A DNA stretch of 64,000 nt from Phyllobacterium myrsinacearum. GTDB lineage: Bacteria > Pseudomonadota > Alphaproteobacteria > Rhizobiales > Rhizobiaceae. Numbering within the stretch: the stretch's first letter is position 1; every line of letters starts with the position of its first letter. Location: NCBI RefSeq assembly GCF_002980555.1, contig NZ_PVBT01000005.1, forward strand, positions 62,001 through 126,000, read 5' to 3'. Shown piece after piece: positions 24,701 to 36,308 of this stretch. The translations under genes and the position numbers were made by a program. The notes beneath the pieces were generated by a model. That model saw nothing but the letters and a program-made list of their open reading frames with translations, had not been told where the DNA came from and did not search any database.

Positions 24701-25632
24701 GACCGCCGGAGAACGGCCACCTGTTTTCCCTCGGCGCAAAGACGTTCCGCCATGGCATCATGAAACGTTTCATCACTCAATAAAATGCGCCTGGCTTCAC
24801 GCCGCGCCATCTGCAGAATCGCGGGTGGAACATCTCTGCCGTAAAATACGACATCGGCCATTTGCAGCAGGCGCATGGCCTTGAGTGTCAGAAGCTCGGG
24901 GTCATCGCTCCCGACCGGGATGACAGTCACGGTGCCCGTGCGTGTATTGCCATCATTGGCTATATCCACTGCCCGTGCCTGCAGCTTGGCCTCTTCGTCG
25001 GGCAATGGGTCCACGCCAAAGGCGCGATTGACAAAATCCTCCCAGAACAGCCTTCGCTGGCGGCCGGGCTGGAGCGTTTGCGCAATATAATAGCGCAATT
25101 GTTGCGCCAGTTGCGCCCATACTGCCAATGATACGGGCAGGATCGTCTCGATCCGCCGCCGGATTGCCTGTGCCAGAATGGGCGCGGCGCCATCGGTAGA
25201 AATGCCGATCACCACGGGCGAGCGATTGACGATGGCGCCAAATTGAAACCCGCAGAATGCCGGTTTGTCGATGACATTGCACGGCACACCGGCTTGCGTG
25301 GACGCATGCAGAAATGCTTCAGCCTCCTGTTCCGTTGCAGCATCGGCGACGGCAATGGCAGCACCGTGCAAATCCACCGCTGCCCACCGGCGCGCATGAT
25401 GAATGAACGGTCCCGCCGCAATCAGCGCGGACATTTCCTCGCTCATGGCTTCGGCGTAGACATGCACCTCGGCACCCGAAGCGGCCAGCAGTTCGGCTTT
25501 CCACGCGGCGGCGGCCGTCCCACCGGCAACGACACCGCGCTTGCCCTGAAGGCTGAAAAACACCGGCAACACCGCCAGCTGCCCGATACCGTCGGGGCGC
25601 GGGCTATTCTGCGGCCTGGAGACGATTTGCAT
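24685..25632 (-). CDS. cysG: Siroheme synthase, CysG-like, with truncated methyltransferase domain
   Basis: ATG 25632 has AGGGGG 7 bases upstream and overlaps the end of nasA by 29 bases; the product has 315 residues. Residues about 15-215 are the precorrin-2 dehydrogenase/ferrochelatase module (LPVFFSLQGKRGVVAGGTAA, SPVVIGISTDGAAPILAQAI). Residues about 235-315 begin a uroporphyrinogen-III methyltransferase domain (VIPVGSDDPELLTLKAMRLL, ADVVFYGRDVPPAIL) but stop after about 80 residues, where the family continues for roughly 170 more. The glycines of the SAM loop are also changed. It should make siroheme for NirB from precorrin-2 supplied by another SUMT elsewhere. Confidence 0.85.
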   Translation of the reverse strand: MQIVSRPQNSPRPDGIGQLAVLPVFFSLQGKRGVVAGGTAAAAWKAELLAASGAEVHVYAEAMSEEMSALIAAGPFIHHARRWAAVDLHGAAIAVADAATEQEAEAFLHASTQAGVPCNVIDKPAFCGFQFGAIVNRSPVVIGISTDGAAPILAQAIRRRIETILPVSLAVWAQLAQQLRYYIAQTLQPGRQRRLFWEDFVNRAFGVDPLPDEEAKLQARAVDIANDGNTRTGTVTVIPVGSDDPELLTLKAMRLLQMADVVFYGRDVPPAILQMARREARRILLSDETFHDAMAERLCAEGKQVAVLRRSYAAS

Positions 25633-28258
25633 CGACAATCCCCCTGATCTCGGCGCGGCACGAACCGCAATTCGTTCCGGCCTGCAAAGCCTCGCCGATG
25701 GCGGCGACGGTCCGGCAGCCGCCGCGTGCGGCACTGGCGATCTCGTTGCGGCCGACGGAAAAGCAGGAGCAGACAATCGCGCCCTTGTCGGGCATATCTC
25801 CACCGGGTCGTCCCGCCAGAAGCTGGAAGCGGTTCTGCACCGCGGGAAAGCGCTGCGACAGCTGTTCGCTGGCCCAACTGCGCGACACGGCGACGGGCTG
25901 GCGGGCGATATAGAGCGCGCCGGTCAGGGCATCGCCTGAAAAAGCGGCCATGCGCTGCTGGCCATTCCTTGCATCGTGGTAACGCAGCAGCGGCGCATCA
26001 TCGCCACAGCCAAAAAGTTCTCCGGCAAACACCGCCCAATTGTCCGGCTCCCGAAGACCGGCCAATTCGATCCGGTATCCGCCATGCGCCTTGGCGAGTG
26101 CCCAGTAATCCGTGGCAATCGCCCGGGGCTTGTTGCGCAGGACCGCGAACCCGTACCAGAGAGCTTCGAAAGGCTGGACATCCACCCTTGCCATCTTCAG
26201 TGCAGGCTGGCCGGAGACCGGATCGGTTCGCGATGTCACCAATGTGTCCACCCGGGCACTCCTGGCGAACTGATTGGTCCAGTGCATGGGCACGAACACG
26301 CTGCCGCGCGCCTGCCTGTCGGTCAGCAATGCCCGAACGACGATATCACCGTAGTCGTTGTTCAGCCGGACAAGGCTCGCATCGGCAATCCCCCGCCCGG
26401 CGGCATCGAGCGGATGCATTTCTACAAAGGGTTCGGCGAAATGCGCTGACAGGCGCGCGCTCTTTCCCGTGCGCGTCATCGTGTGCCAGTGATCGCGCAC
26501 ACGCCCGGTGTTCAGCGTGAATCGTTGATCGATCACGCCGGTATCGGCCGGAGGCACCGCAACGAACCGCGCACGGCGATCGGGGGTGAAGAAGCCTCCA
26601 TCCGCAAAAAACCGCCCGCCACCTGTCGCCGCGTGCTGGCTCTGCGGCCATTGAAATGGGGCAAGGTTGTCATAGGCGCGCGCGGATATGCCGGCATGGG
26701 CAGCGATATCGAAATCGCGGCTGCCCTTGTTCTCCACTCCCGACAAAGCCGCGTGTTCGGCAAAGATCTGCGCGGGATTCTGATAGGTGAATGCGGCGGC
26801 AAAGCCCATGCGTCTTGCCACTTCGGTGATGATCCACCAGTCCGGTTTGGCCTTATCAGGCAGGGGCAGGAACGGCCGCTGCCGGCTGATGCGCCGTTCC
26901 GAATTGGTGACCGTTCCGTCTTTCTCGCCCCATCCGGCCGCGGGCAGAAGCACATGGGCATAAGCGGTCGTGTCGGTTTCCGCATTGATGTCGGAGACCA
27001 CGACAAACGGGCAGGCTTTCAGCGCCTTCGCCACGTGATCGGCTTCCGGCATGGAATCGGCCGGGTTGGTCGCCATGATCCACAGGGCCTTGATCCGGCC
27101 ATCGCCAACCGCCTTGAACAGATCGACCGCCTTCAGCCCCGGGCGCGCCGCGATAGCCGGAGAAGCCCAGAAATCCTGCACCAGCCGCCGGTGCCCGGCA
27201 TTCTCGATCTGCATGTGGCTTGCCAGCATATTGGCAAGCCCGCCCACCTCGCGCCCGCCCATGGCATTGGGCTGTCCGGTGACCGAGAACGGACCCATGC
27301 CGGGGCGGCCGATGCGGCCCGTTGCCAGGTGGCAGTTGATGATGGCATTGACCTTGTCCGTGCCGGATGCCGACTGGTTGACACCCTGGCTGTAGACCGT
27401 CACGCAACGCTCCGTCCGGGCAAACAGCGTGAAAAAGGCAAGCAATTGGTCCGGCGCTATGCCGGTGTGCTGCGAAATCACATCCAGATCGCAGAAACTG
27501 GCTAGGCCCAGCGCCGCCGCAAAACCTGTTGTGTGCCGCTCGATATAGGCATGGTCCAAGGCCCCCTCTTTGGCGAGAAATCCGAGCAAGCCCACAAACA
27601 GCGCCGTGTCGCCGTCGGCACGGATCGGCAGGTGCATGTCGGCGATATCGGCGGTCATGGTGCGGCGCGGATCGATAAGGACAACACGCATCTGCGGACG
27701 CCTGACCTTGGCCGCGGCAATCCGCTGATAGAGCACCGGATGGCACCAGGCGAGATTGGACCCGGTCAGCACGATGAGATCGGCAAGCTCCAGGTCTTCA
27801 TAGGTCCCCGGAACGGTATCCGACCCGAAGGCCCGCATATGCCCCGCCACCGACGACGACATGCACAGCCGCGAATTGGTATCGATGTTCGCCGAACCGA
27901 TGAAACCTTTCATTAGCTTGTTAGCGACGTAATAATCCTCCGTCAGAAGCTGCCCCGAAACATAGAAAGCAACACTGTCCGGCCCATGCTCCCTGATTAC
28001 AGCGTTGAAACGGCTGGCAACGAGATCCAGCGCCTCGTCCCAGCTCGCCGCCTTGCCGCCGATCTGCGGTTCGAGCAGCCGACCATCCAGATGAACCGTT
28101 TCACCGAGCGCCGACCCTTTGGAACAGAGCCGTCCGAAATTGGCGGGATGCTCCGGGTCCCCGGCAATGGCAACCGTCCCGTCATCACGGGGTGTTGCGA
28201 GCACGCCACATCCGACGCCGCAATAGGGACAGGTGGTGCGAACCGCCGGGGTGTCCAT
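25604..28258 (-). CDS. nasA: Assimilatory nitrate reductase, molybdenum catalytic subunit
   Basis: 884 residues, cytoplasmic (no Tat signal). C10, C13, C17 (CPYCGVGC) and C45 (LCSKG) bind the [4Fe-4S] cluster. LIVLTGSNLAWCHPVL and SASGTDKVNAIIN lie in the bis-MGD domain, and GRVRDHWHTMTRTGKS in the C-terminal molydopterin-dinucleotide domain. A BFD-type [2Fe-2S] domain closes the protein (IVCSCFSVGRNEI, GTNCGSCRAEIRGI), as in NasA/NasC of proteobacteria where it receives electrons from an NADH or ferredoxin donor. It reduces nitrate to nitrite. The gene follows nirD by 6 bases. Confidence 0.95.
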   Translation of the reverse strand: MDTPAVRTTCPYCGVGCGVLATPRDDGTVAIAGDPEHPANFGRLCSKGSALGETVHLDGRLLEPQIGGKAASWDEALDLVASRFNAVIREHGPDSVAFYVSGQLLTEDYYVANKLMKGFIGSANIDTNSRLCMSSSVAGHMRAFGSDTVPGTYEDLELADLIVLTGSNLAWCHPVLYQRIAAAKVRRPQMRVVLIDPRRTMTADIADMHLPIRADGDTALFVGLLGFLAKEGALDHAYIERHTTGFAAALGLASFCDLDVISQHTGIAPDQLLAFFTLFARTERCVTVYSQGVNQSASGTDKVNAIINCHLATGRIGRPGMGPFSVTGQPNAMGGREVGGLANMLASHMQIENAGHRRLVQDFWASPAIAARPGLKAVDLFKAVGDGRIKALWIMATNPADSMPEADHVAKALKACPFVVVSDINAETDTTAYAHVLLPAAGWGEKDGTVTNSERRISRQRPFLPLPDKAKPDWWIITEVARRMGFAAAFTYQNPAQIFAEHAALSGVENKGSRDFDIAAHAGISARAYDNLAPFQWPQSQHAATGGGRFFADGGFFTPDRRARFVAVPPADTGVIDQRFTLNTGRVRDHWHTMTRTGKSARLSAHFAEPFVEMHPLDAAGRGIADASLVRLNNDYGDIVVRALLTDRQARGSVFVPMHWTNQFARSARVDTLVTSRTDPVSGQPALKMARVDVQPFEALWYGFAVLRNKPRAIATDYWALAKAHGGYRIELAGLREPDNWAVFAGELFGCGDDAPLLRYHDARNGQQRMAAFSGDALTGALYIARQPVAVSRSWASEQLSQRFPAVQNRFQLLAGRPGGDMPDKGAIVCSCFSVGRNEIASAARGGCRTVAAIGEALQAGTNCGSCRAEIRGIVDANRLQAAE

Positions 28259-28264
28259 GCCGCT

Positions 28265-28594
28265 CTACTCCGCCGCCATGGCGGTGACCGCCAGCCGGGC
28301 CAGAATGCGGTCGCCATCCAGCCGGATCGCGATGGTTTTCACGCTGCCCTCGTCTGCGCCAAGTGCCTTGCCCGTCTCCAGCGAAATGACCCAATTGTGC
28401 AAGGGACAGGTCACCGCCGCGCCATGGACGATGCCCTGGCTGAGCGGTCCGCCCTTGTGCGGGCACTGATCGTCAATGGCAAAAATCTGGTCTTCCATGG
28501 TGCGGAAAACCGCGATCCTGCCATCGGGTGTGTTCACGCAGCGGGCACCACGGCGCGGAATGTCGTTGATTGTTCCAATCTCAACCCAGTTCAT
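28265..28594 (-). CDS. nirD: Nitrite reductase (NADH) small subunit
   Basis: 109 residues from ATG 28594 (MNWVEIGTINDIP); longer in-frame readings run into nirB. Rieske-type [2Fe-2S] ligands are visible as CPHKGGPL and TCPLHNW, so this NirD keeps the cluster residues that many enterobacterial NirD proteins lack. It lies 4 bases after nirB and before nasA. It partners NirB in six-electron reduction of nitrite to ammonium in the cytoplasm. Confidence 0.95.
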   Translation of the reverse strand: MNWVEIGTINDIPRRGARCVNTPDGRIAVFRTMEDQIFAIDDQCPHKGGPLSQGIVHGAAVTCPLHNWVISLETGKALGADEGSVKTIAIRLDGDRILARLAVTAMAAE

Positions 28595-28598
28595 CACT

Positions 28599-31064
28599 CT
28601 ACTCCGCTGCCTGCTGGTAACCGATTTTGGCCATGGGCTGGAATTCATGCTTGTCGACGCCGGAAACACGCTCCGACCACGGATCGACCTGCGCAAAAGT
28701 CTGGCTGAAGACAAAGCGGTCGAAATAACCGCGGCGCTTCACCGCGTCCTGCATGATCTGGCGGCGGATTTCCTCGAGACCGACGCGTTTGGCCCATTTA
28801 TAGATGCGTTCGAGATAGCGGCCCTGCTCGCGGTACATCTGCGTCAACGCCACCACATGTTCGAGCGCCTCATCCTCGGTCTTGACCAGCCCCAGAACTT
28901 CCGTCCCCTTGATGTCGAGACCCGCCGCCCCGGCGAAATGAATCTCGTATCCGGAATCGACACAGATGATGCCGACATCCTTGCAGGTGGCTTCGGCGCA
29001 ATTGCGCGGACAGCCCGACACCGCCATCTTGACCTTGGCGGGCGTCCACGATCCCCACATGAATTTTTCGATGCGAATGCCAAGCCCGGTCGAATCCTGC
29101 GTGCCGAAGCGGCACCAGTCGGTCCCGACACAGGTTTTTACCGTGCGCAGCCCCTTGGCATAGGCCTGCCCCGAGACAAATCCCGCCTTGCCGAGATCGG
29201 CCCAGACGGCCGGCAAGTCTTCCTTCTTGACGCCCAGCATGTCGATGCGCTGGCCGCCGGTGACTTTGACAGCCGGAATGGCGAATTTGTCGACCACATC
29301 GGCGATGGCCCGCAATTCCTTCGCATTGGTGACGCCGCCCCACATGCGCGGCACGACGGAATAGGTCCCATCCTTCTGGATATTGGCATGCACCCGTTCA
29401 TTGATGAAGCGCGACTGGTAGTCGTCGGCATATTCATCCGGCCAGTCGGCAACGAGATAATAGTTCAAGGCCGGGCGGCACTTGGCGCAGCCGCACGACG
29501 TCTTCCATTCCAGTTCCTGCATCACGGCCGGAATGGATTTCAGCTTCTTCGCCTTGATCAGCCGCCTGATATCGTCATGGCCAAGATCGGTGCAACTGCA
29601 CATGGGCGTCACCGCCGATGGGTTGTAGGATTCGCCCAGCGTCAGGGCCAGAAGCTGTTCGACCAGCCCGGTGCAGCTGCCGCAGGAGGCGGAGGCCTTG
29701 GTATGGGACCGCACATCATCCAGCGAGGTCAGCCCCTTGCCCGCTATGGCGCCGGTGATCTTGCCCTTGCATATGCCGTTGCAGCCGCAGATTTCCGCAT
29801 CATCTGGCAAGGCTGCAACGGCCGCCATAGGGTCCAGCGGGGACCCTCCCTGGTAGGACTGGCCGAAAATCAATGTGTCGCGCATCTGCGAAATGTCGGT
29901 GCGTTTTTTGGTCAGGTCATGGAACCAGGCACCGTCGGATGTCTCGCCGTAGAGCACCGTGCCGATGATGCGGTCATCCCTGAGCACCAGCCGCTTGTAA
30001 ACACCGGCGGCGGCATCGCGCAGGACGATCTCCTGCCGGTCGTCGCCCTCGCCAAGATCGCCGACCGAGAACAGGTTGATGCCCGTCACCTTCAGCTTGG
30101 TCGGCGTCTCGCTGTGTACGAATTTCGCCTCCGCATCATCGGCCAGTTGTGCCGACACCACCCGCGCCATTTCATAGAGCGGCGCGACCAGCCCGTAGCA
30201 TTGCCCGCCCACCTCGGCACACTCGCCGATGGCGAAAATATCGGGATCGGAGGTCCGCATGCCGGCGTCGACAACGATGCCGCGATTGGTTTCAAGCCCG
30301 GCTTCCCTGGCAAGCAGGGCATTGGGGCGGATACCCGCCGCCATGACCACCAGATCGGCGGGAAGTGTCGTGCCATCGGCCAGCAGGACGCCTTCCACCC
30401 TGTTCTGACCGGTGATCTCCTTGGTGCTGGCTTTGGTCATCACGCGGATGCCGCGCGCTTCCACCGCCTGTTCGAGCAGATAGCCCGCAGCGGGGTCGAG
30501 CTGGCGCTCCATCAGCGTCGGCATGATGTGCAGGACCGTCACATCCATGCCGCGTGATTTCAGGCCAGCGGCGGCTTCCAGACCCAGCAACCCGCCGCCG
30601 ATCACCACGGCGCGCGCGCGGGACTGGGCGGCAAGCAGCATGGCGTTCACATCGTCGAGATCGCGATAGGTCAGGACCCCCGGCAGGTCGTTGCCGGGAA
30701 CAGGCAGAACGAAGGGAACCGAACCCGTTGCGATCAAAAGCTTGTCGTAGCTTTCGGTCGTCCCGGCATCGGAGGTGACCGTCTTGGCCTCCCGATCGAT
30801 CCCGATGATCCTGTGGCCCTTGTAAAGCGTGATGCCGTGCTTGATGTACCAGCCATCGCCATGGATGATGATTTCCTCGAATTCCTTCTCACCTGACAGC
30901 ACCGGCGACAGCATGATCCGGTCATAATTGACGCGCGGCTCGGCATTGAAAATGGTGACATCATAGGTGTCGGGCGCCATCTCGAAGAGATGTTCGAGCG
31001 CCCTGCCCGGTGCCATGCCATTGCCGATGACGACGAGTTTCTGTTTTTTCGCGGCTGTTTGCAT
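28599..31064 (-). CDS. nirB: Nitrite reductase (NADH) large subunit
   Basis: 821 residues from ATG 31064 (GGAGG 9 bases upstream). Order of domains: FAD/NADH oxidoreductase (LVVIGNGMAPGRALEHL, VVIGGGLLGLEAAAGL), BFD-like [2Fe-2S] region (CGCNGICKGKI, CGSCTGLVEQL, a second CxC...CxxC set near MCSCTDLGHDD and SCGCAKCRP), then sulfite/nitrite reductase half-domains with the siroheme-[4Fe-4S] cysteines in KTCVGTDWCRFGTQDS and SGCPRNCAEATCKD. It catalyses NADH-dependent reduction of nitrite to ammonium. One base separates it from the transporter ATPase gene, showing a tight operon. Confidence 0.95.
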   Translation of the reverse strand: MQTAAKKQKLVVIGNGMAPGRALEHLFEMAPDTYDVTIFNAEPRVNYDRIMLSPVLSGEKEFEEIIIHGDGWYIKHGITLYKGHRIIGIDREAKTVTSDAGTTESYDKLLIATGSVPFVLPVPGNDLPGVLTYRDLDDVNAMLLAAQSRARAVVIGGGLLGLEAAAGLKSRGMDVTVLHIMPTLMERQLDPAAGYLLEQAVEARGIRVMTKASTKEITGQNRVEGVLLADGTTLPADLVVMAAGIRPNALLAREAGLETNRGIVVDAGMRTSDPDIFAIGECAEVGGQCYGLVAPLYEMARVVSAQLADDAEAKFVHSETPTKLKVTGINLFSVGDLGEGDDRQEIVLRDAAAGVYKRLVLRDDRIIGTVLYGETSDGAWFHDLTKKRTDISQMRDTLIFGQSYQGGSPLDPMAAVAALPDDAEICGCNGICKGKITGAIAGKGLTSLDDVRSHTKASASCGSCTGLVEQLLALTLGESYNPSAVTPMCSCTDLGHDDIRRLIKAKKLKSIPAVMQELEWKTSCGCAKCRPALNYYLVADWPDEYADDYQSRFINERVHANIQKDGTYSVVPRMWGGVTNAKELRAIADVVDKFAIPAVKVTGGQRIDMLGVKKEDLPAVWADLGKAGFVSGQAYAKGLRTVKTCVGTDWCRFGTQDSTGLGIRIEKFMWGSWTPAKVKMAVSGCPRNCAEATCKDVGIICVDSGYEIHFAGAAGLDIKGTEVLGLVKTEDEALEHVVALTQMYREQGRYLERIYKWAKRVGLEEIRRQIMQDAVKRRGYFDRFVFSQTFAQVDPWSERVSGVDKHEFQPMAKIGYQQAAE

Positions 31065-31065
31065 C

Positions 31066-31863
31066 TCACGCGGCCTCCACAAGACGGTGCCGCTCGTAGA
31101 GGAATTTCAGCACGGACGAACGGCAGCGGATATAGGTGGCATCGGCGGCAAGTTCGATGCGGCGGCGCGGGCGATCCAGCGGCACGTCAAGAATTTCGCC
31201 GATTCTGGCGGACGGGCCATTGGTCATCATGACGATACGATCAGAGAGCAGCACGGCTTCATCCACATCATGGGTGATCATCAGAACCGTATTGGCAAGC
31301 TCCGTATGGATCTGCATGACCTGATCCTGCAGATGCGCACGGGTGAGCGCATCCAGCGCACCGAATGGCTCATCCAGCAGCAGCACCTTGGGTTCCATGG
31401 CCAGCGCCCGGGCAATGCCGACGCGCTGCTTCATGCCGCCGGAGACTTCCGAGGGGTGCTTGTCCCTCGCATGCACCATCTGCACCAGTTCCAGATTGCG
31501 CATGGTCCATTCATGCCGTTCCGCCCGGCTCTTGCTGGCGGAAAAGACCTTGTCGACCGCCAGCTTGACGTTTTCATAGACCGTCAGCCAGGGCAGCAGC
31601 GAATGGTTCTGGAACACCACGGCACGGTCGGGTCCCGGTGTGTCGACGACAGTGCCTTCGAGAAACACCACGCCGCGCGTCGCCTGTGTCAGCCCGGCAA
31701 CGATGTTGAGCAGCGTGGATTTTCCGCAGCCGGAATGGCCGATGATCGAGATGAATTCGCCTTTTTCAACGCTCAGCGAGACCTGATTGAGAACCTGTGT
31801 GCTGGCACCGCCACGGCTGAACACCATGTCGATCTGTTCGAGGGAGAGATAGGGTTTCGACAT
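31066..31863 (-). CDS. nrtD: Nitrate ABC transporter ATP-binding subunit
   Basis: 265 residues from ATG 31863 (MSKPYLSLEQIDMVFSR). Walker A GHSGCGKST, Q-loop FQNHSLLPWLTV, signature SGGMKQRVGIARALA, Walker B VLLLDEPFGALD and the switch histidine ITHDVDEA are intact. The C-terminal PSARIGEILDVPLDRPRRR is typical of the nitrate/sulfonate/taurine ATPases. It has no fused sensor domain, so it corresponds to NrtD, not NrtC. It powers uptake with the permease and binding protein encoded just upstream. Confidence 0.93.
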   Translation of the reverse strand: MSKPYLSLEQIDMVFSRGGASTQVLNQVSLSVEKGEFISIIGHSGCGKSTLLNIVAGLTQATRGVVFLEGTVVDTPGPDRAVVFQNHSLLPWLTVYENVKLAVDKVFSASKSRAERHEWTMRNLELVQMVHARDKHPSEVSGGMKQRVGIARALAMEPKVLLLDEPFGALDALTRAHLQDQVMQIHTELANTVLMITHDVDEAVLLSDRIVMMTNGPSARIGEILDVPLDRPRRRIELAADATYIRCRSSVLKFLYERHRLVEAA

Positions 31864-31873
31864 GATGGCTTCC

Positions 31874-32764
31874 TCAAGCGCTTGCAGTGTTGCGGGTGAC
31901 GGTCCGGGCGACGAAGGCGATGGCGCGGTCGAGCAGATAGCCGACGATGCCGACATAGATCAGGGCCAGGATGATGTCGCTGATGCGCGACGAGTTCCAC
32001 GCGTCCCAGATGAAGAACCCGATGCCGACGCCGCCGATCAGCATCTCGGCGGCGACGATGGCCAGCCACGACAGGCCGATGCCGATGCGCAGACCGGTGA
32101 AGATGTAGGGCGCCGCGGCGGGGATCATGATCTTGGTGAAATATTCGAACTGGTTGAGACGCAGCACCCGCGCGACATTCTGGTAATCCTGCGGAATGTT
32201 CCTGATGCCCACGGCGGTGTTGATGATGATCGGCCAGATCGCCGTGATGAAAATCACGAAAATCGCAGAGGGGTTGCCGTCCTTGAAGGCAGCCAGGGAG
32301 AGCGGCAGCCAGGCCAGCGGCGGCACCGTGCGCAGCACCTGAAAGATCGGGTCAAGCCCGCGCATCGCCCATTCGCTCTGGCCGACAAGGGTGCCGAGCG
32401 CAATGCCCGCAACCGCCGCAAGACAATACCCCAGTGCCACACGCTTCAGACTGGCGAGGATATGCCAGAACAGCCCCTGATCGACACCCTGTCCGGCATA
32501 GAACGGATGGACGATCAGCTCCCATGTTTCCGAGACCACCCGTGAGGGCGGCGGCACGCTTGCCGTCGGCGAGGAACAGAGGATTTCCCACAGCACCAGC
32601 AGGAAGACGAGCGTGATGATGGGCGGTACCACATGCGCCGCCAGCGAGGTCAGCCATGGCGGCAGACGGCGGGGAGAACCTGTCTTCGGCGGGATGGAAA
32701 GGGTCATGATTTTGGCCGCCTGGGGCTTTTCGGTCGGACGGATGGGAACAGGGCTGGCTGTCAT
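31874..32764 (-). CDS. nrtB: Nitrate ABC transporter permease
   Basis: 296 residues from ATG 32764 (GAGGAAA upstream). The membrane part starts at HVVPPIITLVFLLVLWEIL, and the BPD_transp_1 domain contains the EAA-type loop (NQFEYFTKIMIPAAAPYIFTG, written across the cytoplasmic loop). Segments such as GLSWLAIVAAEMLIG follow. It fits the NrtB/SsuC/TauC family, and the flanking NrtA and nitrite reductase genes specify nitrate. It forms a homodimeric inner-membrane channel. Confidence 0.93.
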   Translation of the reverse strand: MTASPVPIRPTEKPQAAKIMTLSIPPKTGSPRRLPPWLTSLAAHVVPPIITLVFLLVLWEILCSSPTASVPPPSRVVSETWELIVHPFYAGQGVDQGLFWHILASLKRVALGYCLAAVAGIALGTLVGQSEWAMRGLDPIFQVLRTVPPLAWLPLSLAAFKDGNPSAIFVIFITAIWPIIINTAVGIRNIPQDYQNVARVLRLNQFEYFTKIMIPAAAPYIFTGLRIGIGLSWLAIVAAEMLIGGVGIGFFIWDAWNSSRISDIILALIYVGIVGYLLDRAIAFVARTVTRNTASA

Positions 32765-32774
32765 GCCGGTTTCC

Positions 32775-34073
32775 TCACGCAAAACGTTTGATTTCAAGAC
32801 TGGCGAGATAGGTTTGCGGAGCGTCCGGATCGAACACCTTGCCATCGAAGAAAGTCTCCGGACCGCGCGACGGCGACGCCGGAATATCGGCGGCGGCAAC
32901 GCCAAGCTCCCTGGCGGCGTCGCGCCAGATGTCCTCGCGGTTCACCTTGCCGACCAATGCGGCAATATCGGTGTCCGGCGCAAATTTGCCCCAGCGGATA
33001 TTCTCGGTCAGGAACCATTTTTCGTGGCTCTGGAAGGGATAGGATGTGTGATCGCGCCAGAACTTCATCAGATGCGGGCTGGCTGTTTCGACCCGGCCGG
33101 AACCGTAGTCGTAGTCGCCTTTCAATCGCCCAGCGATATCGGTTGCGGGCACATTGAACCAGGCGCGCTTGCCGACCATGGCCGCCAGCTCGTCTTTGTT
33201 GGCGAGATCATCAGCCCATTGCTGCGCTTCCATCACCGCCATCAGCAGGGCCTTGGTGGCATTCGGGTTCTTCTCCACCCAGTCCGCCCGCATGGCGAAG
33301 GATTTTTCCGGGTGTTTGGCCCAGATTTCGGCGGTGTTGACGGCGGTGTAGCCGATGCCCTGATTGACGAGCTGGGCATTCCACGGCTCGCCGACACAGA
33401 AGCAGTCCATGGTGCCGACCTTCATGTTGGCCACCATCTGCGGGGGTGGAACCACGATGGTTTCCACGTCCTTGTCCGGGTCGATCCCGCCTGCGGCCAG
33501 CCAATAGCGGATCCACAGATCGTGCGTGCCGCCGGGGAAGGTCATCGCCGCCTTTGCCGCATTGCCTTGCGCCTTCTTCCGGGCAAAAGCCTCCTTGAGC
33601 ACACCCGCATTGACCCCGGCTTTCAGGCCGGCATAGGCCGAACCCACCGAAATGCCCTGCGCATCGAGATTGAGGCGCGCGAGGATGACCATTGGCAGGG
33701 GCTGGTTGTTCTGGGTGACCTTGCCGGTGCTGATCAGGTACGGCATCGGTGTCAGGATATGCGCGCCATCAATGCCGTTGCCCGCCGAACCGAGCACCAG
33801 ATTGTCGCGCGTCGTGCCCCACGACGCCTGCTTGACCACCTCGACATCGGGCATGCCGTGCTTGGCAAAAAGGCCCCTTTCCTTGGCAACGATCAGCGGC
33901 GCGGCGTCGGTCAGCGCAATGAACCCGAGCGTCGCCTTGGTGGTCTCGGGTCCGGCAGCGGCCGCATGGGCGCCGCCGGGAAGCGCAGCCTTTGCCGCCG
34001 CCAGCAGCGCCAGCGTGCCCCCTGCCCGCAAAAGCGTTCGTCTCGTCAAGCCTGTCGGCAAAATCACCTTCAT
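32775..34073 (-). CDS. nrtA: Nitrate ABC transporter substrate-binding protein
   Basis: 432 residues from ATG 34073, with AAGGGGA upstream. A Tat-type signal (LTRRTLLRAGG then a hydrophobic stretch ending GGAHA) exports it folded. The body is the NrtA/CmpA fold: GFIALTDAAPLIVAKERGLF, GAHILTPMPYLISTG, WIRYWLAAGGIDPDKDVE and CFCVGEPWNAQLV, where nitrate-contacting residues cluster. It is the first structural gene of the operon, behind a sigma-54 promoter and an ANTAR-type leader. It is homologous to the NasS protein encoded upstream, which lacks an export signal. Confidence 0.94.
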   Translation of the reverse strand: MKVILPTGLTRRTLLRAGGTLALLAAAKAALPGGAHAAAAGPETTKATLGFIALTDAAPLIVAKERGLFAKHGMPDVEVVKQASWGTTRDNLVLGSAGNGIDGAHILTPMPYLISTGKVTQNNQPLPMVILARLNLDAQGISVGSAYAGLKAGVNAGVLKEAFARKKAQGNAAKAAMTFPGGTHDLWIRYWLAAGGIDPDKDVETIVVPPPQMVANMKVGTMDCFCVGEPWNAQLVNQGIGYTAVNTAEIWAKHPEKSFAMRADWVEKNPNATKALLMAVMEAQQWADDLANKDELAAMVGKRAWFNVPATDIAGRLKGDYDYGSGRVETASPHLMKFWRDHTSYPFQSHEKWFLTENIRWGKFAPDTDIAALVGKVNREDIWRDAARELGVAAADIPASPSRGPETFFDGKVFDPDAPQTYLASLEIKRFA

Positions 34074-34118: not shown

Positions 34119-34181
34119 AAAAAAACGCCGCCGGATGAAGTGCATTCACCCGATCCGGTGAATGAACTCGCCCAAGCGACG
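34119..34181 (-). terminator. Leader terminator of the nitrate operon (regulated by antitermination)
   Basis: On the minus strand CGTCGC (34181-34176) can pair, with one G-U, with GCGGCG (34131-34126), directly followed by seven T (34125-34119). Inside the loop a further hairpin (34164-34143) and CCGGAT/ATCCGG pairing are possible. The 5' arm CGTCGC overlaps the 3' side of the second hexaloop hairpin, so the two structures exclude each other. It lies 46 bases before the nrtA start. Confidence 0.6.
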
Positions 34182-34241
34182 TCTGTGTCTTTGAAAGCAT
34201 CCGATGGCGATGCTCGCGGTTCCTGTCTTCGTTGACGGAAC
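34171..34241 (-). promoter_or_regulatory. ANTAR-type (NasT-binding) two-hairpin RNA leader
   Basis: Read on the minus strand, hairpin P1 (34241-34219) has stem GTTCC/GGAAC plus GTC/GAC with one bulged A and hexaloop AACGAA (34233-34228). Hairpin P2 (34195-34171) has stem TTCAA/TTGGG plus GAC/GTC and hexaloop ACAGAC (34186-34181). Both loops have A at position 1 and G at position 4, the known hallmark of RNAs bound by ANTAR proteins such as NasT and NasR. P1 begins about one base after the predicted transcription start. NasT binding would favour P2 and block the downstream terminator. Confidence 0.8.
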
Positions 34242-34252
34242 GGTTTTATAAA

Positions 34253-34268
34253 AGCAATAAGCGTGCCA
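34253..34268 (-). promoter_or_regulatory. Sigma-54 (RpoN) promoter of the nrt-nir-nas operon
   Basis: The minus strand reads TGGCACG-CTTA-TTGCT from 34268 to 34253, a full match to the -24/-12 consensus with exactly 10 bases between GG and GC. The predicted start is about 34242. No other element of this quality was found in the window. Confidence 0.88.
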
Positions 34269-34387
34269 ACCGGGTCTTATATTTATAAGTTATTGTAATT
34301 AATGTATATTTTTATAGTCCAGATATTTTTCATTGCAGGCAATCGAAGGGCAGCGCAGGCGAAATGAGCAGAACGGCCATCAGAACC

Positions 34388-34402
34388 GCACATTTATTGT
34401 GC
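34388..34402. promoter_or_regulatory. NtrC-like enhancer box
   Basis: GCACA-TTTAT-TGTGC is a perfect 5-bp inverted repeat with a 5-base spacer, close to the NtrC consensus GCACC-N5-GGTGC. It is centred about 153 bases upstream of the predicted sigma-54 start, a normal enhancer distance, with AT-rich, bendable DNA between. The rest of the 348-base gap 34074-34421 is the leader described in adjacent entries. Confidence 0.55.
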
Positions 34403-34421
34403 AGAGCACAAATTCTGCCCA

Positions 34422-35672
34422 TCAGGCCTCGTCCCGGGTTGCGGCGGGATTTTCAAGATTGTGGACATCAAAGCCCTTGACATAGGCGGGAATGTCCTGG
34501 GGATCGAACACGGCGCCGTCGATGAACCCGTCCTGGCGCTGGCCACCCTCCACGCGCACATCCGCCACGGGAATACCGGCGCGAGGTCCGAGCGCATGGC
34601 GGTAGAGATCTGGACGGAAGGCGGTCGCGACCCTCGCCTGCTTGTCCGGCGAATGATCCACCTGTCCCCACCGCACCATCTGGCTGAATATCCATTGCGC
34701 CTGGCTGACCCAAGGGAAGTTTGCGCCGTCGCGGTGGAAGGTGAAATAGTCGGAGACCGTCCGCTCGTGCCCGTCGGGGTCGGTGGTGAACCTGCCCATG
34801 AGAACCCGGTGCAGGATGTCCACCGGCGCATCGATATAACGCGGCTCGGCGAGAATCTCGGCAAGCACGCGGCGATTGTCCGGCACATCGCACCACGCAG
34901 CCGCGCGATCCAGCGCAACGATCAGCCGCGCCAATGTTTCAGGATTGGCATCCGCCCATTCCGGCCGCACGCCGATGACCTTTTCCGGGCTGGACGGCCA
35001 GATGTCCTCCTTGACCGCAACGATGCGTCCGACTTCGCGGGCGACGGCCACCATGTTCCATGGCGCGCCGACGCAGAAACCGTCAATGGCGCCCGCCGAC
35101 AGGGCATCGGATGTCATGGGCGGCGGCACGACCACCAGTTTGACGTCGCGGTCCGGATGGATGCCGCCTGCCGCCAGCCAATAGCGCAGCTCATAATTGT
35201 GCGAGGAAAACGGATAGGTCGTGCCAAGCACCGGCAATGGCTCGCCGCGCTCTTTCATATCGTCGATCACGCGCTTGAGAGCCTCGGCATTGGCAAGCGC
35301 GTCCTCATTACCGGCAAGACCGGTCAGCGCCTGCATGCGGCGATACAGCTTCACCGACAGGGTAATGGCATTGCCGCCGCGCCCGAGCGTGAACGGCGTG
35401 ATGACAGCCGAGGGATTGGAACCGAGCCCCAAGGCGGAGGCGACCGGCATGGGCGCCAGCATGTGGGCGGCATCGAACTGCCGGAAGGCCAGCCGATCCC
35501 GGATATTGGCCCAGGACACGTCTTTCACCAGTTCAAGCTGAATGCCTTCACGCGCGGCGAAACCAAATTCGGCCGCCGCGATGAGAACGGAAGCATCGAC
35601 AAGCGGAATGAAGCCCGCGCGAACGACACGGACGCCCATATCCTGGCCATTGTCCATCCGGATAAAACTCAC
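34422..35672 (-). CDS. nasS: Nitrate sensor NasS (NrtA-like, cytoplasmic)
   Basis: 416 residues from GTG 35672, with AGAGAGG upstream (a TTG two codons earlier is also in frame). It is homologous to NrtA (VRAGFIPLVDASVLIAAAE, RYWLAAGGIHPDRDVKLVV, GFCVGAPWNMVAV) but has no signal peptide or Tat motif, so it stays in the cytoplasm. In known systems NasS sequesters NasT and releases it when nitrate binds. It lies 15 bases downstream of nasT and just before the regulated leader. It could be mistaken for a transport protein on homology alone. Confidence 0.9.
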   Translation of the reverse strand: MSFIRMDNGQDMGVRVVRAGFIPLVDASVLIAAAEFGFAAREGIQLELVKDVSWANIRDRLAFRQFDAAHMLAPMPVASALGLGSNPSAVITPFTLGRGGNAITLSVKLYRRMQALTGLAGNEDALANAEALKRVIDDMKERGEPLPVLGTTYPFSSHNYELRYWLAAGGIHPDRDVKLVVVPPPMTSDALSAGAIDGFCVGAPWNMVAVAREVGRIVAVKEDIWPSSPEKVIGVRPEWADANPETLARLIVALDRAAAWCDVPDNRRVLAEILAEPRYIDAPVDILHRVLMGRFTTDPDGHERTVSDYFTFHRDGANFPWVSQAQWIFSQMVRWGQVDHSPDKQARVATAFRPDLYRHALGPRAGIPVADVRVEGGQRQDGFIDGAVFDPQDIPAYVKGFDVHNLENPAATRDEA

Positions 35673-35687
35673 GGCCAACCTCTCTTT

Positions 35688-36291: not shown

Positions 36292-36308
36292 TGCACCAAA
36301 ATTGTGCA
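36292..36308. promoter_or_regulatory. NtrC-like box upstream of nasT
   Basis: TGCACCAAAATTGTGCA pairs TGCACC with TGTGCA around a 5-base spacer, one mismatch from a perfect TGCACC-N5-GGTGCA palindrome. It starts 17 bases upstream of the nasT ATG. No sigma-54 -24/-12 pair is visible in this 111-base gap, so the box could repress, autoregulate or act from a distance. Confidence 0.5.

Follow-up and report, generated by a model that had tools for sequence, protein, structure and literature searches.

A nitrate-assimilation leader of Phyllobacterium myrsinacearum with two ANTAR-type hexaloop hairpins and a probable folded spacer

The nasTS-nrt locus and its leader

The window considered here is a stretch of 64 kb on contig C5 of the 5.44-Mb genome of Phyllobacterium myrsinacearum. 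Its minus strand carries, in this order, nasT, nasS, a gap, nrtA, nrtB, nrtC, nirB, nirD and a molybdopterin reductase gene (Table 1). The NasT protein, whose closest named relative is found in Phyllobacterium calauticae (98% identity), combines a receiver domain with a C-terminal ANTAR domain, resembles the solved ANTAR proteins Rv1626, EutV and NasR, and is encoded next to nasS. NasS belongs by its fold-family match to the NrtA-like nitrate-binding proteins, and no signal peptide was seen on inspection by eye; its true start codon may lie further inside the frame. An earlier note on this DNA had placed nasT and nasS directly upstream of the leader. The start of nrtA is most likely 34073, chosen by eye from a Shine-Dalgarno sequence (AGGGG) and a twin-arginine signal. 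Upstream of this start the frame stays open as far as the terminator (34145-34073), with in-frame ATG codons at 34145 and 34118, and an automatic gene caller may choose a start that is too early. At the other end of the cluster, the molybdopterin reductase matches the NasC and formate dehydrogenase models, in both cases below their cut-offs.

Table 1. Positions of genes and leader features in the window
Feature	Positions	Strand	Evidence or remark
NtrC-like box TGCACAATTTTGGTGCA	36292..36308	-	10/10 letters; 33 to 17 bases before nasT start
nasT, receiver + ANTAR antiterminator, 195 aa	35688..36275	-	Pfam ANTAR 73.3 bits, Response_reg 33.7 bits
nasS, predicted nitrate/nitrite sensor, NrtA family	34422..35678	-	NMT1_2 249 bits; 2g29 NrtA E 4e-55
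NtrC-like box TGCACAATAAATGTGCG before nrtA leader	34387..34403	-	9/10 letters of TGCAC-N7-GTGCA
Sigma-54 promoter TGGCACGCTTATTGCT (-24/-12)	34253..34268	-	exact consensus
Hairpin 1 (P1)	34219..34241	-	fold; hexaloop AACGAA 34233-34228, one bulged A
Middle (spacer) hairpin GAGCAUC-GCCAUCG-GAUGCUU	34195..34215	-	fold, conservation; 7-nt loop without ANTAR hexaloop
Hairpin 2 (P2, antiterminator)	34173..34193	-	fold, conservation; hexaloop ACAGAC 34186-34181
Intrinsic terminator	34119..34182	-	overlaps 3' arm of hairpin 2; 34182-34125 plus seven U 34125-34119
nrtA, nitrate-binding protein, first controlled gene	32775..34073	-	NMT1_2 346 bits; twin-arginine signal by eye
nrtB	31874-32755	-	TIGR01183 over cut-off; nrtB + nrtC span 31066..32755
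nrtC	31066-31866	-	TIGR01184 over cut-off
nirB, nirD, molybdopterin reductase resembling assimilatory nitrate reductase	25604..31064	-	TIGR02374, TIGR02378 over cut-off

The consensus of the NtrC box is TGCAC-N7-GTGCA, and sequences resembling it stand before both the nrtA leader and nasT. A sigma-54 promoter follows the first of these boxes, and counting from its -12 element gives a predicted transcription start near 34242. Within the 64 kb, TGGCACGCTTATTGCT is the sole exact match to TGGCACN5TTGCW; when up to one mismatch is allowed, three matches are found against 2.61 expected, which is chance level. Genome-wide, TGGCAYN5TTGCW occurs 15 times and the reversed pattern 9 times, so near chance that the pattern alone was rejected as proof of a promoter. 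Both motifs (sigma-54 site and NtrC box) are short and lie near chance level in a single genome; it is conservation that carries the case.

The leader itself folds better than all of 200 dinucleotide shuffles (z -3.95). The core of hairpin 2, GAC-ACAGAC-GUC (34189-34178), is extended by CAA/UUG pairs across an internal loop, and the terminator starts with the last two bases of its loop; the two structures are mutually exclusive. The minimum-energy form of the leader is the terminator; an RNA truncated after hairpin 2 and folded without constraint forms hairpin 1, the middle hairpin and hairpin 2. Forcing hairpin 2 in the whole leader gives -44.8 kcal/mol against -49.4 for the terminator form, a difference of just 4.6. 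The earlier note had described the NtrC-like inverted repeat before nrtA, the perfect -24/-12 promoter, two A1/G4 hexaloop hairpins of which the first starts at the predicted +1, and the overlapping terminator, and each was recovered where it had been placed; the middle hairpin and the perfect NtrC-like box before nasT had been overlooked. With two A1/G4 hexaloop hairpins, an intrinsic terminator overlapping the second, and a linker that exceeds the short range of ANTAR-target RNAs (29 nt here, 21-36 nt across 69 leaders) yet is folded, the leader is a variant of the ANTAR dual-hexaloop motif.

Conservation among related nasT loci

The comparison set consisted of the best 80 of 341 loci of NasT relatives; these loci are related, and the counts given below are therefore not independent. 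The same leader is present in 68 of the 80, a replaced leader in 10 and none in 2. The latter (L069 and L070, from Ensifer and Sinorhizobium) possess nasTS, and no leader was found nearby. The earlier note had held that few loci show the module so compactly; this was wrong, as the module is common in rhizobia. The note's reading as NtrC/sigma-54 initiation coupled to NasT antitermination is well supported by the same comparison.

A regular expression that required both a sigma-54-like site and an AANG loop found the site, with hairpin 1 after it, in 78 of the 80 loci. Among the 79 leaders so selected (78 loci and the window), loop 1 invariably lies 19-21 nt from the -12 element. The loop of hairpin 2 carries A1 and G4 in all 69 complete leaders (68 and the window), neither base having been required by the search, and a matched terminator 3' arm with a T tract is present in every one of them. 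Base pairs of hairpin 1 show both-sided changes across the leaders, that is, covariation; the stem of hairpin 2 is invariant, so that its covariation is not assessable. An NtrC-like box with at least 8 of 10 letters lies within 260 bp upstream of 59 of the 79 leaders (9.3 in shuffles). The box before nasT keeps 8-10 of 10 letters and the same place in all 16 closest loci (L003-L018), and is scattered or absent in the remaining 64 of the best 80.

A search of the whole genome with leader model R1 gave one convincing match, the window leader (E 6e-13, this leader being part of the model), followed by a next match at E 0.05; a type B pattern, made for short linkers, matched nowhere in the genome. 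Within these models, which other leader types would escape, the leader appears as a single site in the genome. R1 found matches in 39 of 151 genomes of the family. The best 24 matches besides the window, some of which may be species used in building the model, all combine a sigma-54 site at 20-22 nt with a terminator and with a long linker in which a hairpin is predicted. Eight further R1 matches (L244-L247, L273-L276) do not pass the terminator grammar and are regarded as chance. A type-A search pattern applied to 398 genomes was dropped, as it mixed leaders with chance matches in coding sequence.

The ten loci with a replaced leader include Rhizobium species near R. phaseoli, R. sophorae and R. 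lentis. They retain hairpin 1 and the sigma-54 site, and have lost hairpin 2 and the terminator. At most 140 nt downstream stands another leader, whose linker is 2 nt long, whose loops are AACGGC-like and AAAGCC, and which has a terminator of its own. Apparently, a relic of the long-linker leader precedes a complete short-linker leader brought with a replacement transporter gene. In the two of these loci with listed reading frames, nrtABC is absent and a single transporter gene comes next; in the one locus scanned it encodes an MFS protein, probably a nitrate transporter. As the replaced leader accompanies a changed transporter gene, the leader seems to travel with its target. The loci concerned are L047, L048, L052, L060, L061, L068, L071, L076, L078 and L081, with these features near 12.0-12.3 kb.

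The middle hairpin, ANTAR regions and the narK RNA family

In the 69 complete rhizobial leaders the linker between hairpin 1 and hairpin 2 has a median length of 29 nt, that of the window. It folds at -3 kcal/mol or lower in all of them, with a mean z of -2.36 against shuffles and z below -1 in 62. In a MAFFT alignment made without fitting to structure, the 53 rows from outside Phyllobacterium have standard pairs in 82% of the cells of the spacer stem, and six of its seven pairs have changed on both sides (34 cells). Slid registers of the same rows reach at most 62% pairing, with five of seven pairs and 13 cells changed on both sides, and none of 500 shuffles attains the observed pairing level, the best register having been chosen on the alignment that was tested. 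In the Phyllobacterium group, the spacer of 13 distinct rows is paired in 99% of cells with one both-sided change, a level equalled by 1 of 500 shuffles. RNAalifold did not predict the middle hairpin from the joint alignment, because the pairing registers of the two groups differ by two columns. The loop of about 4-7 nt varies in length and sequence and has no hexaloop signature, which favours a spacer over a third NasT site. The net unpaired length of the linker was rejected as a measure since it does not discriminate: shuffled linkers have about 9 unpaired nt against 7.

Native EutV linkers are 5-12 nt long, and induction falls drastically at lengths of 3 or 14 nt (PMC3369931). In the EutV system, 20 additional linker nucleotides abolish antitermination in vitro (PMC8934654), and an actinobacterial survey of ANTAR-target RNAs gives linkers of 2-25 nt (PMC8164766). 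Given this dependence of EutV on linker length, an unfolded linker of 29 nt would be expected to fail, and by analogy the middle hairpin probably serves as a folded spacer. Should it do so, natural sequences could be used to test a question about ANTAR switches, namely whether a single NasT dimer passes from hexaloop 1 to hexaloop 2, a step that requires the two to be near each other in space.

A wider survey took ANTAR genes with their surroundings, 12 kb in most cases and less in a few, from 100 genomes that were hand-picked, with preference for NasT-sized frames, from the 155 ANTAR-matching among 398 Pseudomonadota genomes. A grammar that combines two A1/G4 hexaloop hairpins with a terminator overlapping hairpin 2 found 56 matches in 48 of the 100 regions; with the control loop identities C/G, A/C, T/A, G/A and C/T, there were 4, 0, 0, 0 and 2 matches. 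In 22 of the 56, loop 1 is preceded at 17-25 nt by a sigma-54-like site with at most one mismatch (0.52 in shuffles). The 52 regions where the grammar found no match, among them all nine fetched from one genus (g12), indicate either that it misses leaders or that other ANTAR genes work otherwise. The linker measures at most 11 nt in 23 of the 56 matches and at least 22 nt in 30, of which 25 contain a predicted hairpin of -5 kcal/mol or lower. With z below -1 in 19 of the 30, the long linkers across the phylum do no more than suggest a folded spacer. By eye, the middle hairpin of L173, L174, L181, L185 and L193 itself seems to bear an A1/G4 hexaloop, which would make these triple-hexaloop leaders. 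The scan took the first hairpin with the longest stem, and in L174, L181, L185 and L193 the hexaloop-bearing middle hairpin may be the true first hairpin.

Rfam yields no match in the window at the gathering threshold. A permissive search aligns RF03032, the narK RNA, to 34267-34176 at 27.4 bits, below the gathering value of 43.2 that delimits the family. The RF03032 consensus starts with GGCaCA-gcuc-UUGCU, and its first 15 positions are readable as a -24/-12 promoter. There follows a hairpin with a loop beginning AACG (AACGnn); the 3' end, CGACAAAGACGUCGC (CGAC-AAAGAC-GUCG), reads as a second hexaloop hairpin, and is unpaired in the Rfam structure, where the first hairpin alone is marked. All three elements recall the window leader, unlike the linkers of the RF03032 loci, which are mostly 3-9 nt long with three longer ones (16, 31 and 46 nt). 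RF03032 matches occur in 29 of the 398 Pseudomonadota genomes, 16 of them above the cut-off. All 29 fall within the 155 having an ANTAR gene (hypergeometric 2e-13, kinship ignored and many being of one family), and 35 of 47 RNA matches, in 26 of the 29 genomes, lie within 10 kb of a listed ANTAR gene. Of the 30 RF03032 loci fetched (L083-L112), 18 pass the full A1/G4 grammar and 12 fail, and none passes with any of five other loop identities. Judged from these features, RF03032 is most likely the same element as the NasT leader; if so, a described RNA family that apparently lacks an assigned function would gain a protein partner and have its 5' boundary corrected. No paper on RF03032 or the narK RNA motif was found in the literature searched, and none joining NasT antitermination with sigma-54. 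The narK motif is reportedly described in a 2017 paper in NAR.

A proposed two-input switch and its alternatives

Initiation by NtrC/sigma-54 according to nitrogen status, combined with NasS-NasT control of elongation by nitrate, is an established model in related bacteria, with experimental support in Paracoccus denitrificans and Bradyrhizobium (PMC3795266, PMC5424462, PMC6759348), and agrees with all features of the locus. The main circuit being already known, finding it here is unremarkable; the new points, both computational, are the folded spacer and the RF03032 reading. We consider it very probable that the locus is a two-input nitrate-assimilation switch joining NtrC/sigma-54 initiation to NasS-NasT antitermination. 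As in the homologous systems, NtrC would act under nitrogen limitation from the upstream box or boxes on the sigma-54 promoter, and transcription would begin at the base of hairpin 1. The emerging RNA would then form hairpin 1, the spacer hairpin and hairpin 2 in turn. When nitrate is absent, NasS would hold NasT, and the polymerase would stop before nrtA as the terminator captures the 3' arm of hairpin 2. Nitrate or nitrite would cause NasS to free NasT, which would bind the A1/G4 hexaloops and stabilise hairpin 2 until the polymerase has passed, and readthrough would turn on nrtABC-nirBD and the reductase. With less certainty, the spacer hairpin would shorten the long linker and keep both hexaloops within the reach of NasT.

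In P. denitrificans, likened here from its published description, nasT-nasS also lies directly upstream of a leader with hairpins, that of nasA; NasT binds the leader RNA and an NtrC box has been verified upstream of nasT (PMC3795266, PMC5424462). The target here is nrtABC-nirBD instead of nasA, and a sigma-54 site with an NtrC-like box is visible before the target operon, whereas the Paracoccus paper describes this site as yet to be identified (PMC3795266, PMC5424462). For Bradyrhizobium diazoefficiens, the published work reports leader antitermination by NasT, demonstrated for nos, and several targets of NasT, in contrast to the one leader found genome-wide here with model R1 (PMC6759348). 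The EutV/eutP leader of Enterococcus faecalis likewise has two A1/G4 hexaloop hairpins, the second exclusive with a terminator; its linkers are described as unstructured and span 5-12 nt, against 29 nt with a hairpin here, and EutV is controlled by a kinase where NasT is controlled by NasS (PMC3369931, PMC8934654).

A broader joint reading, to which we give an even chance, is that rhizobial NasT leaders form a three-hairpin class of ANTAR switch, in which an inserted, sequence-variable spacer hairpin preserves the reach between hexaloops by folding up an otherwise overlong linker. The narK RNA would be the short-linker version, its 5' end being sigma-54 promoter DNA and not RNA. The rigid promoter-to-hairpin spacing would put hairpin 1 at the extreme 5' end of the RNA, where it could recruit NasT immediately as the RNA emerges from the polymerase.

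The alternative that survives best keeps the switch as described and makes the middle hairpin a polymerase pause, a linker insulator or a further protein site instead of a distance keeper, a real possibility of somewhat less than even weight. The variable loop of this hairpin and its place as the first structure formed after hairpin 1 agree with such a part, and pausing there would also buy NasT time; the sharp linker-length dependence published for EutV (PMC3369931, PMC8934654) and the phylum-wide linkers, mostly either short or long with a predicted hairpin, argue instead for distance keeping. It appears very improbable that most nrtA transcripts arise at a sigma-70 promoter or as readthrough from nasTS, with an incidental -24/-12 element: a sigma-70-like site (9/12) does lie nearby on the minus strand (34321-34292), and the sigma-54 motif is near chance genome-wide, but neither the constant spacing to loop 1 in the 79 selected leaders nor the recurrence of the element in 22 of the 56 leaders found without using it would be expected. 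A plain attenuator or Rho-independent terminator, with NasT uninvolved and hexaloops arising by chance, would suit the terminator as minimum-energy form and is highly improbable in view of A1/G4 in both loops of all 69 complete leaders, the 0-4 matches given by other loop identities in ANTAR regions, and their 0 of 30 against 18 of 30 at the RF03032 loci.

Besides nasT, contig C5 carries a second ANTAR gene near 51.2 kb (L002), about 10.7 kb left of the window. It has an AmiR-type N-terminal domain, overlaps a periplasmic-binding-protein-like gene and adjoins an OppC-like permease gene, resembling an AmiC/AmiR-like pair.
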